IMG/VR virus record: IMGVR_UViG_3300038305_000075
Location: 1 to 30,163 of that record
DNA: 30,163 nt
DNA from: a virus
Reading direction: 5' to 3' (one strand)
Shown here: piece by piece, positions 369 through 26,817 of the stretch
Layout of the letters: the number at the start of each line of letters is the position of its first letter
Position numbering within the stretch: the stretch's first letter is position 1
Notes under the pieces: model-generated
Seen by the model: only the letters and a program-made list of their open reading frames with translations
The model's database searches: none
What the model was told of the DNA's origin: nothing
Position numbers and translations under genes: made by a program

Positions 369-450
369 AGTTTATTATAATAAAGGGGTTGTTTAGTGTG
401 ATGAATGGAAAAATTCATTATCTTGTACATTGATTTAAATACACTTTGCT

Positions 451-2420: not shown

Positions 2421-3133
2421 TAACGTTTAAGGAACATATAAGCTATTCTAAGAGCTTAACTATAGACGATGATGGTATCGTGTCGGCTGAAGATTTAGAT
2501 GGCTTAGAGAAGCTTGATTTGCTTCGAAGGATGGCAGAGGTGTATCCCATTAAGGAAAGCAGAAGGATAACACCGTACATCAAAGAGAACTTCAATGTGA
2601 ATAAAGGGGTCATGGATTTAGTTCTTGGTCAGTTCATAATGATAGAACAGATACTCACGGGCAAGGCTAAGTTCAAATCAGACGAGGAAATGGAACTTGC
2701 CATACTAGAACTCGTCCTTAGACCTAAGCACCATGAGGAGTTTGACAACGTAAACCCTATTGAGAAACAACAGCACCGTGAAAAACTGCTAAACTCACCT
2801 GTGCAAGACTTGTACAATGTGCTTCAAAGGTATTTAGGTGATAGGGAACACATATTGTTCAATAAATTTAAAGGGGTTTTTTACGAGGTAAACGAAGAAA
2901 CTGATGAAATTGAGGAGAAGGTAGATAATACTAGCGAAACTGGTGCACAGTTTTACTCTCAATGGTACTGGTATTCTATAGTTCGTATGCTTGGGCAAGA
3001 AGATATAAGGAGATACTCGGAGATTTATATGTTGAGTATGTCTGATGTTTTACCAGAGATGAGCTACCTAGCTCAGAAGAACAAGGTTGAGTCAGCACAG
3101 CAAAGACAGAACGCAGCCCTTAGTAAATTGTAA
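2417..3133 (+). CDS. unknown, possible tail assembly chaperone
   Basis: 238 residues, starting at the ATGA overlap with terL (ATG 2417); a longer frame from GTG 2375 would lie inside terL. It is mostly helical and acidic. The C-terminal 60 residues (SQWYWYSIVRMLGQEDI, then SEIYMLSMSDVLPEMSYLAQ) resemble in spacing the second part of tail assembly chaperones, which have W/Y-rich helices followed by a LA.+NK-type helix. Two genes later comes the tape measure, which fits a chaperone that coats it. I see no frameshift extension of the kind many chaperones have. The family assignment is tentative. Confidence 0.45.
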   Translation: MITFKEHISYSKSLTIDDDGIVSAEDLDGLEKLDLLRRMAEVYPIKESRRITPYIKENFNVNKGVMDLVLGQFIMIEQILTGKAKFKSDEEMELAILELVLRPKHHEEFDNVNPIEKQQHREKLLNSPVQDLYNVLQRYLGDREHILFNKFKGVFYEVNEETDEIEEKVDNTSETGAQFYSQWYWYSIVRMLGQEDIRRYSEIYMLSMSDVLPEMSYLAQKNKVESAQQRQNAALSKL

Positions 3134-3138
3134 ATTAA
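3128..3138 (+). repeat. TTGTAAATTAA motif, copy 1
   Basis: Overlaps the TAA stop of the preceding gene (3131-3133) and ends 12 bases before the ATG at 3151. First of seven late-region copies discussed in the findings. Confidence 0.5.
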
Positions 3139-11920: not shown

Positions 11921-11930
11921 TTGTAAATTA
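11921..11930 (+). repeat. TTGTAAATTA motif, copy 2
   Basis: Begins on the base right after the TAA stop at 11918-11920 and ends five bases before the ATG at 11936. Here the last A is replaced by T. Confidence 0.5.
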
Positions 11931-13383: not shown

Positions 13384-13394
13384 TTGTAAATTAA
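13384..13394 (+). repeat. TTGTAAATTAA motif, copy 3
   Basis: Starts two bases after the TAA stop of the protease/scaffold gene and lies 30 bases before the ATG of the major capsid gene, in a 42-base AT-rich gap. Confidence 0.5.
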
Positions 13395-14319: not shown

Positions 14320-14343
14320 GGAGGGGCTTAGTCCCCTCCCTTT
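14320..14343 (+). terminator. hairpin after the capsid gene (weak terminator or mRNA stabiliser)
   Basis: GGAGGGG (14320-14326) pairs with CCCCTCC (14333-14339) around CTTAGT, followed by only CTTTAACCTT. The stem is strong but the T-run is short, so partial termination or protection of the capsid mRNA 3' end is more likely than full stop. Confidence 0.6.
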
Positions 14344-15013: not shown

Positions 15014-15024
15014 TTGTAAATTAA
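15014..15024 (+). repeat. TTGTAAATTAA motif, copy 4
   Basis: Lies between the stop at 15001-15003 and the terminator at 15028. It is the copy farthest from a stop codon (10 bases) and is upstream of a terminator, which argues against a simple promoter role. Confidence 0.5.
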
Positions 15025-15027
15025 CAC

Positions 15028-15060
15028 AAGGGGAGGGACTAATACCCCTCCCCTTTTTTT
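15028..15060 (+). terminator. Rho-independent terminator
   Basis: A ten-pair stem AAGGGGAGGG (15028-15037) / CCCTCCCCTT (15046-15055) with an 8-base loop ACTAATAC is followed by a run of T to 15060. This is the best terminator inside the late region and would end the capsid/tail-tube mRNA, leaving downstream genes dependent on read-through or a new start. Confidence 0.85.
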
Positions 15061-16107: not shown

Positions 16108-16253
16108 TGATAAACCTTGCTCTATCTGTACTATCTATATCAACACGATCTGCTGCTTTAATTAATCAGCGAAACGAGTTTGATAACGTACAGTGGAACA
16201 CTATACAGATGCGTTGGGAGACAATTCAAGATACTTGGGAAGCAGAATTGTAA
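16107..16253 (+). CDS. 48-residue protein sharing the Trp-rich WETI tail
   Basis: ATG 16107 overlaps the previous TAA by one base, and TAA is at 16251-16253. The product begins MINLALSVLSISTRSAALI and ends FDNVQWNTIQMRWETI then QDTWEAEL. The end matches the 87-residue gene at 15581 as F-[SD]-N-[LV]-QW-x2-I-x3-WETI-x3-W. Tight coupling and a shared motif support a real gene despite the small size. The hydrophobic N-terminus is too short for a confident membrane span. Confidence 0.6.
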   Translation: MINLALSVLSISTRSAALINQRNEFDNVQWNTIQMRWETIQDTWEAEL

Positions 16254-16258
16254 ATTAA
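16248..16258 (+). repeat. TTGTAAATTAA motif, copy 5
   Basis: Contains the TAA stop of the 48-residue gene (16251-16253) and ends four bases before the ATG at 16263. Confidence 0.5.
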
Positions 16259-18202: not shown

Positions 18203-20668
18203 ATGGCCATTAAGATATTAGGAGATATTGACGTTACAGGGAGTCACCAACTAGGTACTTCTGATATTCCAAATCTAGCGGCAAGTAAGATTACGAGTGG
18301 TACATTGGGTACTGCTCGTATTCCTTCTTTAGCTGCCTCTAAAATTACAAGTGGCACATTCGATGCGGCTCGCATACCCGACTTGTCTGCGACTTATCAA
18401 GTTGCGGGGAGTTACCAAGCTTCAGGCAGTTACCAAGCAGCGGGTAATTATTTTACTGATGGCGATACTGTCATCAATATGGCTAATAACGATGGGTTTA
18501 GTTATAATGACACTACAAATGTAATGTCTGTAAAGCTAGATGGAACTCTTCGTGAACTATACCATACAGGTAACCTAACACCTTTAACAATAGGAACCTC
18601 TGCTACAACAGCAATGGCGGGTAACACATCTTTATTTGATGGTGCTTACGATTCTCTTAGCGGTAAGCCAGAATTGTTTGATGGTGCATACAGCTCACTA
18701 AGTGGTCTGCCCACTTTGGGTACAGCAGCAGCAACGGCTTCTTCTGCTTACGCTACAGCAGCGCAAGGCACATTAGCAGATGGAGCATTGCAAAAAACAG
18801 GTGGTACTGTACAAGGAAATTTAGTTGTTGGAAATGTCGACACAGCTTCTGACAGAGTAGTAAGAGTTCTTGCTGACCAAAGCTATAAGGCTGGGTTCGA
18901 GGCTTATGGGGATGGTCAAGGAACGGGTTACTTATTTGTCGGTCAGTCAGGTGGTTATGGTGGTGGTGTTTCTTACAATGGAGACAATTCTCCTGGATTT
19001 ATAACGGGGGAAACTGCTGATAATATAACCTTCTTTAGAAGATCCAACGGTACAAACACAGAAGTGTTTCATTACTCTCATTCTAACAATGACGTTTACT
19101 TTAACGGAACAATAACGGCTAGTGGAAGTCACTCTGGTAATTGGAATACTGCTTATGGATGGGGAGATCACGCACAAGCGGGATACGGATCATCAAGTTT
19201 TGATGGTGATTACGCTTCACTAGCTAATAAGCCTACTTTATTTGATGGTGCTTATGGTTCATTAACAGGTACACCGACTTTATTTGACGGAACTTATGAT
19301 GCTCTTGAAGGCAAGCCCACACTAGGAACTGCTGCTGCAACTGCTTCCTCAGCATACGCAACCTCAGCGCAAGGAACAAGAGCTGACGGTGCATTGCCAA
19401 AGACGGGTGGAACAATGACGGGTTCACTTACTATCGGAGATGGTTCAGCAGCTACTAGATTAATTATCAAAAGAGTAGATAGTACCACATCTGATGACAT
19501 TCAGTTTTTTAACGGAACTACAAGAATGGGTGAGATTGGAACTCAAGACACTACATGGCTAAGAATAAATCAAAACACAAGTAAAAACATATACACTCCT
19601 AGATATATACGTGCTGACAGCGGATTCTTTGTAGACGGCACGGATAAGGGGATTAACGGTAGTGGTAACTTCATAGGCGGTACTATTACAGGAGCAAGTG
19701 ATGCTAATGTATCCAATTGGGACACGGCATACGGATGGGGTAATCACGCAACTAGAGACTACGTTACGGTTGAGGCTTTGGGTGAATATGGATTCCTTAC
19801 CTCTGAAACAGATAGCCAAACATTATCTATAAGTGGTACTACGCTTTCGTTAACTAATGGAGGTTCTGTTACGCTACCCACAAGCACAGGACCTGCGGGT
19901 GCAGATGGTTCTAATGGTGCAGATGGTTCTAATGGTACTAATGGTACTAATGGCTCTAATGGTAGTGACGGAGCTGACGGAGATTCAATCACAGGTGTGA
20001 GCCTAGTTAACTACGAATTAATTGTAGAGATTGAAGGCACGGAAGTTAATCTAGGTAATGTTCGTGGTGCAGCGGGAAGTAATGGTACTGATGGTACTAA
20101 TGGTAGTAATGGTGCTGATGGAGCTGACGGTGCTGACGGTGCTGACGGTGCGGAAGGCCCACGGGGGCCACAAGGGGAACCCGGTGCCGATGGTGCTAAT
20201 GGGACAAACGGTTCAAACGGATCAGCCGGGCCAGAAGGGCCGCAAGGCCCAGCCGGGCCAGCGGGGGCTAACGGGACTAATGGAGCTGATGGAGCTGATG
20301 GAGACGCTAACTTAGATAACCTATCTAACAATGGTAACAGTCTAGCGGGTACGTTTACTGCCACAGGTGACCTTATTGCTTACTCTGATGAAAGAGTTAA
20401 AGAGAACATAGAAACTATCCCTAACGCTATTGAAAAGGTTACAGCCTTACGAGGTGTTAACTTTAATAAGATAGGTGAGGAGAAACGCTCTACGGGTGTT
20501 ATAGCGCAAGAAGTTGTTGAGGTTTTGCCTGAAGTTGTACACGAAACAGAAGAGGGAATGTTAGCTGTCGCATATGGAAACATTACGGGGCTTCTTATCG
20601 AGGCTATTAAGGATCAGCAAAAACAAATTGAGGAACTAAAAGCAAGACTAGATGGCTCTACAAAGTAG
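18203..20668 (+). CDS. tail fibre with collagen-like repeats and S74 auto-cleaving chaperone
   Basis: 821 residues. The N-terminus carries repeated AASKITSGT and ARIP units, followed by two long copies of a fibre module (LFDGAY..L, TAAATASSAYAT, ADGAL.KTGGT, then NW.TAYGWG.HA). Collagen-like Gly-X-Y tracts lie at 563-594 and 622-701. The C-terminus is a peptidase S74 intramolecular chaperone starting at S728 (SDERVKENIE), with GVIAQEVVEVLPEVV, VAYGNITGLLIEAI and a final coiled coil. S728 and K733 match the Ser/Lys pair that cuts the chaperone off after the trimer folds. It is probably the main receptor-binding fibre. A TATATTTG promoter candidate lies 20 bases upstream. Confidence 0.92.
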   Translation: MAIKILGDIDVTGSHQLGTSDIPNLAASKITSGTLGTARIPSLAASKITSGTFDAARIPDLSATYQVAGSYQASGSYQAAGNYFTDGDTVINMANNDGFSYNDTTNVMSVKLDGTLRELYHTGNLTPLTIGTSATTAMAGNTSLFDGAYDSLSGKPELFDGAYSSLSGLPTLGTAAATASSAYATAAQGTLADGALQKTGGTVQGNLVVGNVDTASDRVVRVLADQSYKAGFEAYGDGQGTGYLFVGQSGGYGGGVSYNGDNSPGFITGETADNITFFRRSNGTNTEVFHYSHSNNDVYFNGTITASGSHSGNWNTAYGWGDHAQAGYGSSSFDGDYASLANKPTLFDGAYGSLTGTPTLFDGTYDALEGKPTLGTAAATASSAYATSAQGTRADGALPKTGGTMTGSLTIGDGSAATRLIIKRVDSTTSDDIQFFNGTTRMGEIGTQDTTWLRINQNTSKNIYTPRYIRADSGFFVDGTDKGINGSGNFIGGTITGASDANVSNWDTAYGWGNHATRDYVTVEALGEYGFLTSETDSQTLSISGTTLSLTNGGSVTLPTSTGPAGADGSNGADGSNGTNGTNGSNGSDGADGDSITGVSLVNYELIVEIEGTEVNLGNVRGAAGSNGTDGTNGSNGADGADGADGADGAEGPRGPQGEPGADGANGTNGSNGSAGPEGPQGPAGPAGANGTNGADGADGDANLDNLSNNGNSLAGTFTATGDLIAYSDERVKENIETIPNAIEKVTALRGVNFNKIGEEKRSTGVIAQEVVEVLPEVVHETEEGMLAVAYGNITGLLIEAIKDQQKQIEELKARLDGSTK
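19889..19984 (+). repeat. collagen-like coding repeat, short tract
   Basis: Encodes about 32 residues of Gly-X-Y (residues 563-594), mostly GSN, GTN and GAD triplets, using repeated GGTACTAAT/GGTTCTAAT codons. It forms a rigid triple-helical stalk segment. Confidence 0.8.
20066..20305 (+). repeat. collagen-like coding repeat, long tract
   Basis: Encodes about 80 residues of Gly-X-Y (622-701), beginning with GSN/GAD types and including a Pro-rich part (GPRGPQGEPG, GPEGPQGPAGPAG). The Pro-rich part is visibly GC-richer (GGCCCACGGGGGCCACAAGG) than its surroundings, which may reflect separate acquisition. Tract length can change by slippage or recombination. Confidence 0.8.
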
Positions 20669-22014: not shown

Positions 22015-22015
22015 A

Positions 22016-22025
22016 TGTAAATTAA
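22016..22025 (+). repeat. TGTAAATTAA motif, copy 6
   Basis: Starts one base after the TAA stop at 22012-22014 (preceded by A instead of T) and ends 12 bases before ATG 22038. Confidence 0.45.
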
Positions 22026-22374: not shown

Positions 22375-22384
22375 TTGTAGATTA
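22375..22384 (+). repeat. TTGTAGATTA, variant copy 7
   Basis: One mismatch from TTGTAAATTA. It starts one base after the TAA stop at 22371-22373 and ends five bases before the portal ATG at 22390. Confidence 0.35.
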
Positions 22385-25074: not shown

Positions 25075-25440
25075 TTACTTTAGACGGCCTCTCTTGTCCA
25101 CGCTTCTCACTGCGAAGTACCCGCCTATCACTGTTACGCTTACCATTTCCCATAAACCGATCCATCTTTCACTTACACTACTAATACCAAAGCCTTCAAA
25201 GAAGGTCATTAATACTAAGAAAATAATCACTGTGGCGAGAGTGAGTGGCCTTACGTTCTTGGATAACCAAGAATCAGAAGACATATCAGACTTCCACCTC
25301 TTGCTAATTTCAGCTTCTACGGATTGTCTTATCTCCTCCTTTTCTTCAGGAGTGGTTACGAATTTGTCTACAGCGTTTGTTACAGCATTTATGGTTTCTG
25401 CTGCACCTCCGCTAAATAATTTTTTCAGTGGATTTCCCAT
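25075..25440 (-). CDS. 3TM-type holin
   Basis: 121 residues. An amphipathic N-terminal part (GGAAETINAVTNAVDKFVTT, then a charged helix to 60) is followed by two clear membrane spans: 65-83 (PLTLATVIIFLVLMTFFEG) and 95-111 (GLWEMVSVTVIGGYFAV). It ends in a basic tail. This matches the Holin_3TMs family, which often shows only two strong spans. It would form membrane lesions that release the endolysin made from the opposite strand. It is the last gene of the leftward block. The start lies two bases after the previous stop. Confidence 0.75.
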   Translation of the reverse strand: MGNPLKKLFSGGAAETINAVTNAVDKFVTTPEEKEEIRQSVEAEISKRWKSDMSSDSWLSKNVRPLTLATVIIFLVLMTFFEGFGISSVSERWIGLWEMVSVTVIGGYFAVRSVDKRGRLK

Positions 25441-25680: not shown

Positions 25681-25777
25681 CGGTGTTGGAATCATTCTTT
25701 TTAGAATTAGAGTTAGTAAAAATAGGTTCGTCCCAGTACAGAAATACTTGGTCGCTTTTATAATTTACATTACTCAT
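25640..25777 (-). CDS. 45-residue polar protein
   Basis: ATG at 25777, TAA at 25640-25642; the start overlaps the end of the membrane protein gene. The product begins MSNVNYKSDQVFLYWDEPIF and continues Asn/Ser/Lys-rich. Coding support is the tight packing and a normal start. Its early codons contain TGTAAATTATAA, close to the recurring late-region motif, so this may instead be a leader. Confidence 0.4.
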   Translation of the reverse strand: MSNVNYKSDQVFLYWDEPIFTNSNSKKNDSNTDEERDQKTIYPTL

Positions 25778-26018
25778 TAACTAGCTTTCTATAAGTGAGT
25801 TCCGCAATTAGACTTGAATAAATTGCGTGCATTGGATGCAAGTCCATTGCTGCAAATATAATTAAGCAACTCCAGAACGACAAACACAATACACAATTAA
25901 AAGGTTTATAAGGTAGTATGTTCTCTATGATCCAGCCCCAAGGCTCAAACACAAATAGATAAGCAAATAAAAACCCCATTCCAATGGCAAAGAACCACCC
26001 TTCATAAATACTAATCAT
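25770..26018 (-). CDS. small membrane protein with CxxCxxFW motif
   Basis: 82 residues with two clear membrane spans (about 8-25 and 43-60) and perhaps a third weak one (63-76). Between them is PFNCVLCLSFWSC (C42, C45), recalling the short CxxCxxFW stretch of DUF1360-like membrane proteins. It overlaps the sigma-like gene as ATGA. Possible roles are membrane modification or superinfection exclusion; neither is shown. Confidence 0.6.
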   Translation of the reverse strand: MISIYEGWFFAIGMGFLFAYLFVFEPWGWIIENILPYKPFNCVLCLSFWSCLIIFAAMDLHPMHAIYSSLIAELTYRKLVNE

Positions 26019-26422
26019 AATTTTTTACTTGTATAATCATCACGAATATAACGAACAAGTTTTAATTTAACCTCTCCGTCTTCTATTATATATATTCTTC
26101 CTTTAATTTTCTGCCCATATACATCCCTCCACTTTAATGACACTATCTTATTATTCATTGTAGAATATATTATAGATATAATAAGATTAGCAGCGGACTT
26201 TCCTGGTGTGTAATAATACAGAAACTTTTCGCACACTCTCATCACAGCTTCATCTACAAGAGACTGTCTAAGCTCTTCGTTGCCATTGGTTATAAATGAG
26301 TAGTAAGATATTTCTTTAGCACGAGCTAGTATAAATCGACCAAGTACATCGGTGATTTTACCTTGCTTTGCAGAGAGCGTTGATTCTTTCTCTATTAATT
26401 CTTTATCGTATTTCTTCTTCAA
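26015..26422 (-). CDS. possible T4 gp55-like late sigma factor
   Basis: 135 residues, basic. Residues 50-105 resemble sigma region 2 as seen in small phage late sigma factors: ELRQSLVDEAVMRVCEKFLYYY, then SAANLIISIIYSTMNNKIVS and KWRDVYGQK. Shared points with gp55 are the D-E-A/V helix, K-F-aromatic, an Asn-containing core helix (MNNKI) and a following basic segment. No sigma region 4 is present, as in gp55. It may direct host RNA polymerase to the late rightward genes. Evidence is pattern-level only. It overlaps both neighbours. Confidence 0.5.
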   Translation of the reverse strand: MKKKYDKELIEKESTLSAKQGKITDVLGRFILARAKEISYYSFITNGNEELRQSLVDEAVMRVCEKFLYYYTPGKSAANLIISIIYSTMNNKIVSLKWRDVYGQKIKGRIYIIEDGEVKLKLVRYIRDDYTSKKL

Positions 26423-26615
26423 TACGATCTACTATTCGTACAATGTCAAAGAGATAGTCTGAAAGTTCTTTGGTGCTAATGTTGAGTTCATAACCCAACC
26501 GCACCAGTGTAACCTTGTTCCCTTGGTGTACCAGTTCTCTAATTGTTTCATACAGTGTTATTAAGAAGTCAGCTTCTTGCTCTGTTATATCTGAATATGT
26601 TTCATCAATTTGCAT
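26403..26615 (-). CDS. small HTH-like protein
   Basis: 70 residues. The segment KVTLVRLGYELNISTKELSDYLFDI (about 34-58) has helix-turn-helix spacing, with a turn at NIST and a probable recognition helix after it. Acidic helices flank it. It overlaps the sigma-like gene by 20 bases and its upstream neighbour by 11. It could be a DNA-binding regulator working with the sigma-like protein, but no family is recognised. Confidence 0.55.
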   Translation of the reverse strand: MQIDETYSDITEQEADFLITLYETIRELVHQGNKVTLVRLGYELNISTKELSDYLFDIVRIVDRIEEEIR

Positions 26616-26817
26616 AAGGTCTAATAGATAAAGCCTTGGCGGGATCTAGTTCGGCTATCTTATCTATCATCTGATTTTCTTTTTTATAAGCAGCTTGAAT
26701 TTCTTCAAGAGTAGAGTCCGTTCCAAGGTTCGCAAATAACTGTGCCATTTCATAAAGGTACAAGTCTATGCGATTCTTAATTAATTTACAATTATGGTAG
26801 TTACGATTACTCAGCAT
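26605..26817 (-). CDS. small helical protein (MAQLFANLGTDST type)
   Basis: 70 residues from ATG 26817, overlapping the RusA-like gene by 11 bases. The body LYLYEMAQLFANLGTDSTLEE then a Lys/Glu helix (AYKKENQMIDKIAELD) matches a type of short phage protein I associate with marine phages, function unknown. ATG 26748 (the Met of MAQLF) is an alternative start. In favour of the later start, the minus-strand motif AATTGTAAATTAA lies at 26781-26793, after the RusA-like stop. Against it, the LYLYE residues before the Met look conserved in type. Confidence 0.55.
   Translation of the reverse strand: MLSNRNYHNCKLIKNRIDLYLYEMAQLFANLGTDSTLEEIQAAYKKENQMIDKIAELDPAKALSIRPYAN

Follow-up and report, generated by a model that had tools for sequence, protein, structure and literature searches.

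A distant homologue of the T4 late sigma factor gp55 and a candidate late promoter motif in a family of small phages

Late transcription of the gp55 type has been described for T4-related phages, where it is tied to the replication clamp. Three acidic residues in helix 3 of gp55, E70, D74 and E77, bind the clamp helices of RNA polymerase. Sigma function can also be shared between two polypeptides, as in SigO-RsoA of Bacillus subtilis, a two-protein sigma factor. In T4 gp55 a sigma region 2 domain is accompanied by a helix-loop-helix, which guides the template strand, and by a clamp-binding motif at the C-terminus; residues Y97 and T99 line the pockets for -12A and -8A (PMC7892883). T4 late promoters have no -35 element and consist of a -10-like element only (PMC7892883, PMC2988020).

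We analysed one IMG/VR virus record of 30,163 bases, referred to below as the window. A sequence-only reading of it had proposed a possible gp55-like late sigma factor, encoded leftward and lacking region 4. The two genes concerned are:

26015..26422, minus strand: gp55-like sigma region 2 protein, 135 aa, TTG start
26403..26615, minus strand: acidic helix-turn-helix (HTH) protein, 70 aa, overlapping the start of the sigma gene by 20 nt

A conserved 135-residue protein related to gp55

The first open reading frame has exactly the position, strand and length that the sequence-only reading gave, and contains both DEAVMRVCEKF and STMNNKIVSLKWRD. Its block runs leftward and the virion genes rightward, so the division of strands was borne out in the window as well. 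A single-sequence scan of IMG/VR retrieved 49 relatives encoding the protein, and a profile scan retrieved 89, of which 80 were kept. These IMG/VR relatives have identities of 60-95%, and at least 46 columns are invariant in the family alignment of 28 sequences; such conservation shows that this is not a chance reading frame. The gene is present in all 14 sigma-locus contigs and in 5 of 5 capsid-locus contigs of at least 35 kb. A search through the capsid protein for family phages without the gene found none; since shorter capsid-locus contigs without it may be fragments, they do not provide a natural negative. Neither the gene nor the proposed regulon had been annotated in the databases searched.

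None of the isolate phages is close to the window phage. Its portal protein matches that of Nonlabens phage P12024S/L (24% identity) and its DnaB-like ATPase matches those of Flavobacterium, Riemerella, Tenacibaculum and Maribacter phages. Both matches support a flavobacterial host, and this small marine phage probably infects flavobacteria. Related contigs reach 39.6 kb, compared with 169 kb for the T4 genome. A scan of bacterial and archaeal genomes also yielded a 3.8-kb contig in a Euryarchaeota MAG (JABJFP010000307.1), which encodes the HTH-sigma pair with 65% identity. Archaea are not known to use sigma factors, so an archaeal origin was rejected and the contig is read as a probably mis-binned phage contig.

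When the 135-residue protein was used alone in searches of Pfam, PHROG and PDB, no sigma match was obtained, and no curated family matched it. Weak matches to MxiM, DUF3978 and cysteine desulfurase cover small parts of the protein and, with the profile, vanish or remain insignificant. The AlphaFold (AF2) model built with the family alignment (pLDDT 83.5) has four helices followed by a beta hairpin. Its top structural match in the PDB is T4 gp55 as present in an open promoter complex (7d7c_F), with a Z of 12.5 and an rmsd of 4.1 Å across 103 residues, and the ranks below are mostly sigma region 2 domains. In BFVD, a library of viral structures, the matches are headed by a protein from Tenacibaculum phage pT24 that carries no annotation, with several named late sigma factors next. 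The region 2 fold ends near residue 95 of the model and the hairpin follows, which agrees with the proposed absence of region 4.

The pT24 protein also provides the link at the level of sequence profiles. It is the single protein picked by the family HMM in the pT24 genome (E 7e-4), with the best score among the ORFs of three flavobacterial phage records and ten gp55 proteins. Alignment of the family with pT24-like proteins by hhalign gave a score of 44.5, against 14.3 for the best of 40 column shuffles and 12.7 for the reversed control. The pT24-like proteins in turn match gp55 with a profile probability of 98.8%, and the pT24 protein matches phrog_234, the late sigma family that includes T4 gp55, with an E value of 5e-7. 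The direct comparison of the family with gp55 is weak (25.3) but exceeds all controls (best shuffle 17.6, reversed 15.6). Taken together, the fold and the profile chain through the pT24-like intermediate establish a distant but real homology: the 135-residue family is a distant homologue of gp55. The gp55-like assignment is thus supported by fold and by family profile, although single-sequence HMM searches came back blank.

The closest detectable relatives of the family are gp55-related proteins of the large phages pT24, PTm1, MA9V-1/2, PAU, XacN1 and Lak, with genomes of 213-735 kb, several of which infect Bacteroidota; these proteins are mostly annotated as hypothetical. They share with the family an N-terminal S-x-x-Q-G-x-(I/L)-T block and region 2. 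Unlike the family, they keep the gp55-like F-x-Y/F-F-T block, and in pT24 the translated neighbour gene is not an HTH. The proteins of pT24 (148402-148761, BAV39297), PAU (gp112), PTm1, MA9V-1 and Lak can be recognized as gp55 relatives by profile or BLAST; most are annotated as hypothetical or not at all, and their phages are those of Bacteroidota and others.

The 135-residue protein resembles T4 gp55 in having sigma region 2 as its sole recognisable sigma domain, and differs from it in what follows. In place of the helix-loop-helix, the AF2 model predicts, with moderate confidence, a beta hairpin with strands at 103-114 and 117-127. The T4 C-terminal tail, SLDFLYEAND, has no counterpart: the hydrophobic-acidic clamp-binding tip is absent from 28 of 28 family members, whose conserved C-terminus ends with KYxxDDxxSxxL or RYxxDDxxSxxL. 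With a hairpin for the helix-loop-helix and no clamp tail, the protein lies outside the strict clamp-coupled T4 type. In the helix matching gp55 helix 3, E50, D57 and mostly D/E58 are conserved, with a register uncertain by one turn. The position of T4 Y97 is aliphatic in either plausible register of an ambiguous alignment (L80 or I81), and that of T99 is I82 or S83, depending on the register. A -10 pocket altered in this way would fit a changed promoter specificity, within the ambiguity of the alignment.

Six related phages encode a second sigma-like protein of about 240 aa in their early region (L097:2794-3525, minus strand; L249, L250, L251, L252 and L253). The protein from relative G003 has a region 4 match (E 3e-6). 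The five that could be read to the end finish with (A/E)A(M/L)SF(L/V), mostly then Y, after a variable linker, an ending that resembles the gp55 clamp-binding tail. G007 and G015-G019 yielded no such second gene.

A motif upstream of the late genes

De novo motif analysis of nine related genomes, the window included, gave TTGTAAATTA as the top motif upstream of late genes, among them those for capsid, portal and tail. Of 51 occurrences, 46 lie within 70 nt upstream of late genes; since sites in different genomes are homologous and not independent, the nine gene classes and the within-genome shuffle statistics are the safer measures. The exact core, TGTAAATTA, occurs nine times in the window, seven times on the late strand and twice on the early strand, against 0.37 expected per strand, and six of the seven late-strand copies directly precede late genes. 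The late-strand count is 5-8 in each of the nine genomes, with 0.33-0.47 expected. An exact TTGTAAATTA precedes the presumed major capsid gene in all 79 loci with upstream sequence, and it is invariant in 46 distinct upstream sequences with varying flanks, which were collected through the motif.

The sequence-only reading had seen no T4-type late promoter and had suggested that a new specificity could exist, possibly linked to TTGTAAATTAA. Both statements stood. The T4 element TATAAATA occurs at expectation (3 found, 3.0 expected) and was rejected as the late promoter, and the new specificity is supported by the excess of the exact core and its placement before late genes. When two mismatches were allowed, TTGTAAATTAA fell to chance level (30 versus 30); its signal lies in exact matches and position.

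No -35 signal was detected between -45 and -5 (at most 0.44 bits over nine gene classes of equal weight). The base five positions downstream of TTGTAAATTA is most commonly A in 9 of 9 classes and is A at 54 of 57 sites, consistent with a start site and likely to be +1. The candidate promoters at TTGTAAATTA are -10-only like T4 late promoters, and use of host RNA polymerase would be expected for both; they differ from the T4 system in the element itself, TTGTAAATTA instead of TATAAATA, and in the presence of the overlapping acidic HTH gene. The sites in the window, and the gene that follows one of the leftward copies, are:

423..432, plus strand: possible late promoter variant TTGTACATTG (weak), before gene 451
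3128..3137, plus strand: candidate late promoter TTGTAAATTA, 13 nt before ATG 3151
11921..11930, plus strand: candidate late promoter TTGTAAATTA, 5 nt before ATG 11936, predicted leaderless
13384..13393, plus strand: candidate late promoter TTGTAAATTA, 31 nt before the presumed major capsid gene 13425
15014..15023, plus strand: candidate late promoter TTGTAAATTA, 48 nt before the MSFSCSIL gene, with GC hairpin 15030-15053 between
16248..16257, plus strand: candidate late promoter TTGTAAATTA, 5 nt before ATG 16263
22015..22024, plus strand: candidate late promoter variant ATGTAAATTA, 13 nt before ATG 22038
22375..22384, plus strand: candidate late promoter variant TTGTAGATTA, 5 nt before portal gene 22390
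25075..25440, minus strand: holin-like gene downstream of a leftward motif (phrog_3427 holin, E 2.7e-18)
25761..25769, minus strand: TGTAAATTA, upstream of the leftward lysis gene(s)
26782..26791, minus strand: TTGTAAATTA, 166 nt before the HTH gene of the HTH-sigma pair

At homologous genes the spacing of TTGTAAATTA to the start codon is 12-13 nt (MNNL), 5 nt (MATYNDYP), 4-5 nt (portal), 30-33 nt (presumed capsid) and 48-50 nt with a GC hairpin between (MSFNCSI); in several genomes the motif also precedes MAVKFL. The portal gene, which has a variant in the window, is preceded by an exact TTGTAAATTA in G003, G004, G005, G007, G008 and G009. The weak variant TTGTACATTG was compared with TTGTACATTA, found before the MTTKQLL gene in G003 and G004. 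At three genes the conserved A is the first base of the ATG, which predicts leaderless or nearly leaderless mRNAs. The leftward copy at 26782..26791 lies inside an upstream 70-aa ORF (26605-26817), so that coding constraint may contribute to the motif there; in relative G008 the motif core stands 4 nt before the HTH ATG. The lysis gene after the other leftward copy is a holin in the window and an amidase in relatives.

Two stable GC hairpins followed by T or A runs were noted in the window, at 15030-15053 (-18.7 kcal/mol) and at about 14320-14340 (-13.8 kcal/mol). Since the first begins only 6 nt after the motif, RNA initiated at that site would have a terminator-like hairpin at its 5' end.

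The motif often overlaps the upstream stop codon and lies 5 or 13 nt before several starts, as might be expected of an RNA-level signal, either a translation enhancer or an mRNA processing site, with the sigma-like protein using another element. We regard this as highly improbable: the distance to the start codon ranges from 4 to 55 nt, a GC-rich hairpin intervenes in two classes, the spacing between motif and A is constant both where the A falls within an ATG and where it does not, and copies of the motif precede leftward transcription units too.

The promoters of the presumed host provide another comparison. Their sigmaA box, TAnnTTTG at -12 to -5 (PMC9723704), is AT-rich, lies as far from the start site as TTGTAAATTA does and has TA and TT in common with it. 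In start-site register the motif reads TAAATTA, and a region 2 domain alone suffices to compete for the clamp helices. The sigma-like protein could thus be an anti-host factor that shuts off host transcription by occupying the beta' clamp helices, with sigmaA or another phage factor recognizing TTGTAAATTA; the second sigma-like protein with its region 4 match is present in six relatives. However, the motif does not include the TG that the host box has at -6/-5, its core follows an almost invariant TTG, and no -35 is visible, unlike in flavobacterial sigmaA promoters. In the same genomes, host-type TATATTTG boxes precede different genes, in no case alongside TTGTAAATTA, and G007, which has the motif, yielded no second sigma gene. 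An anti-host role is therefore considered improbable, and promoter recognition by the gp55-like protein is preferred.

In phages outside the family, P12024S has a different region 2 protein and a single TTGTAAATTA, and the first 50 kb of pT24, examined by the same k-mer method, yielded host-type TATATTTG and not TTGTAAATTA. Within the window, the rightward gene starts at 18203 and 21778 have a host-type TATATTTG box instead of TTGTAAATTA, and such a box recurs before the 21778-type gene in several relatives. The 821-aa product of the gene at 18203-20668 is tail-fibre-like and contains collagen-like GxY repeats, and its C-terminus looks like an intramolecular chaperone (Peptidase_S74-like) end.

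The overlapping acidic HTH gene

In every examined locus that includes the region, among them 34 of 34 in the second of two sets, the HTH gene stands immediately upstream of the sigma gene. The AF2 model of its product (pLDDT 89.4) has a compact HTH fold; its better matches among known structures, with Z of about 6-7, are to TetR-type HTHs and to sigma-A chains. The segment of E. coli sigma70 aligned to it, 448-502, may be read as region 3, and the full-length sigma-A chains aligned over this part reach Z of about 6-6.7; since TetR-type HTHs score the same or better, the model match is too low to decide. Sequence comparison with regions 2, 3 and 4 of E. coli rpoD gave no match. The net charge of the HTH protein is -6 to -12 among 37 members, and the sigma-like protein is basic. 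Such strong acidity argues against DNA binding alone and is compatible with a cofactor that binds the polymerase or the sigma protein; the HTH protein is probably such a cofactor. In SigO-RsoA the sigma regions are distributed over two adjacent genes, and they may possibly be split likewise here, although the HTH partner is acidic and has no sequence match to rpoD regions 3 or 4.

Sigma and anti-sigma genes are often co-transcribed, and the overlap of the two genes in all loci examined, together with the opposite charges of their products, would suit an anti-sigma factor or a repressor of the sigma protein as well. In T4, moreover, gp33 alone represses basal transcription by gp55 (PMC7892883). 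Against this role, the HTH protein has no match to known anti-sigma families and its compact HTH finds sigma-A chains as well as TetR-type HTHs among its better matches. We therefore judge an anti-sigma function unlikely and keep to the cofactor reading.

A proposed late transcription system

Conservation of the protein, its fold and distant homology, the pairing of the two genes, and the motif with its placement are established by computation. From these we infer that a gp55-type sigma factor directs host RNA polymerase to -10-only TTGTAAATTA late promoters, probably with the HTH protein as cofactor, and put the probability of this reading at roughly 0.78. Since no family phage without the gene was found, the link between protein and motif rests on co-occurrence.

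In the proposed scheme the sigma-like protein would work like gp55, its single region 2 domain docking on the beta' clamp helices of host RNA polymerase. The 135-residue minimal sigma would read one -10-like element, TTGTAAATTA, and initiate at the A five bases after it, without a -35 element. Portal, MATYNDYP and MATLTGNKP would then be transcribed from the start codon or from within one base of it. Rightward copies of the motif would drive the main transcription units for virion genes, and leftward copies the HTH-sigma pair, with possible positive feedback, and the lysis gene(s). The acidic HTH protein would probably be an obligate cofactor, standing in for gp33 or for the absent sigma regions, and T4-like clamp coupling through the 135-residue protein is not expected. 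The inferred parts of this scheme are binding of the protein to the polymerase, its recognition of the motif, the timing, the start sites and what the HTH protein does. The full version, in which small, probably flavobacterial phages would use a two-protein, clamp-independent late sigma system of region 2 and an acidic HTH, with -10-only TTGTAAATTA promoters and partly leaderless mRNAs, is put forward tentatively.

Since the promoter consensus is short and complete and the cassette has two genes, the system lends itself to testing in vitro. The proposed presence of a much reduced, divergent gp55 and a promoter sequence of its own in an abundant family of marine phages points to a sigma region 2 switch that either predates the T4 machinery around it or moves more readily than that machinery does.
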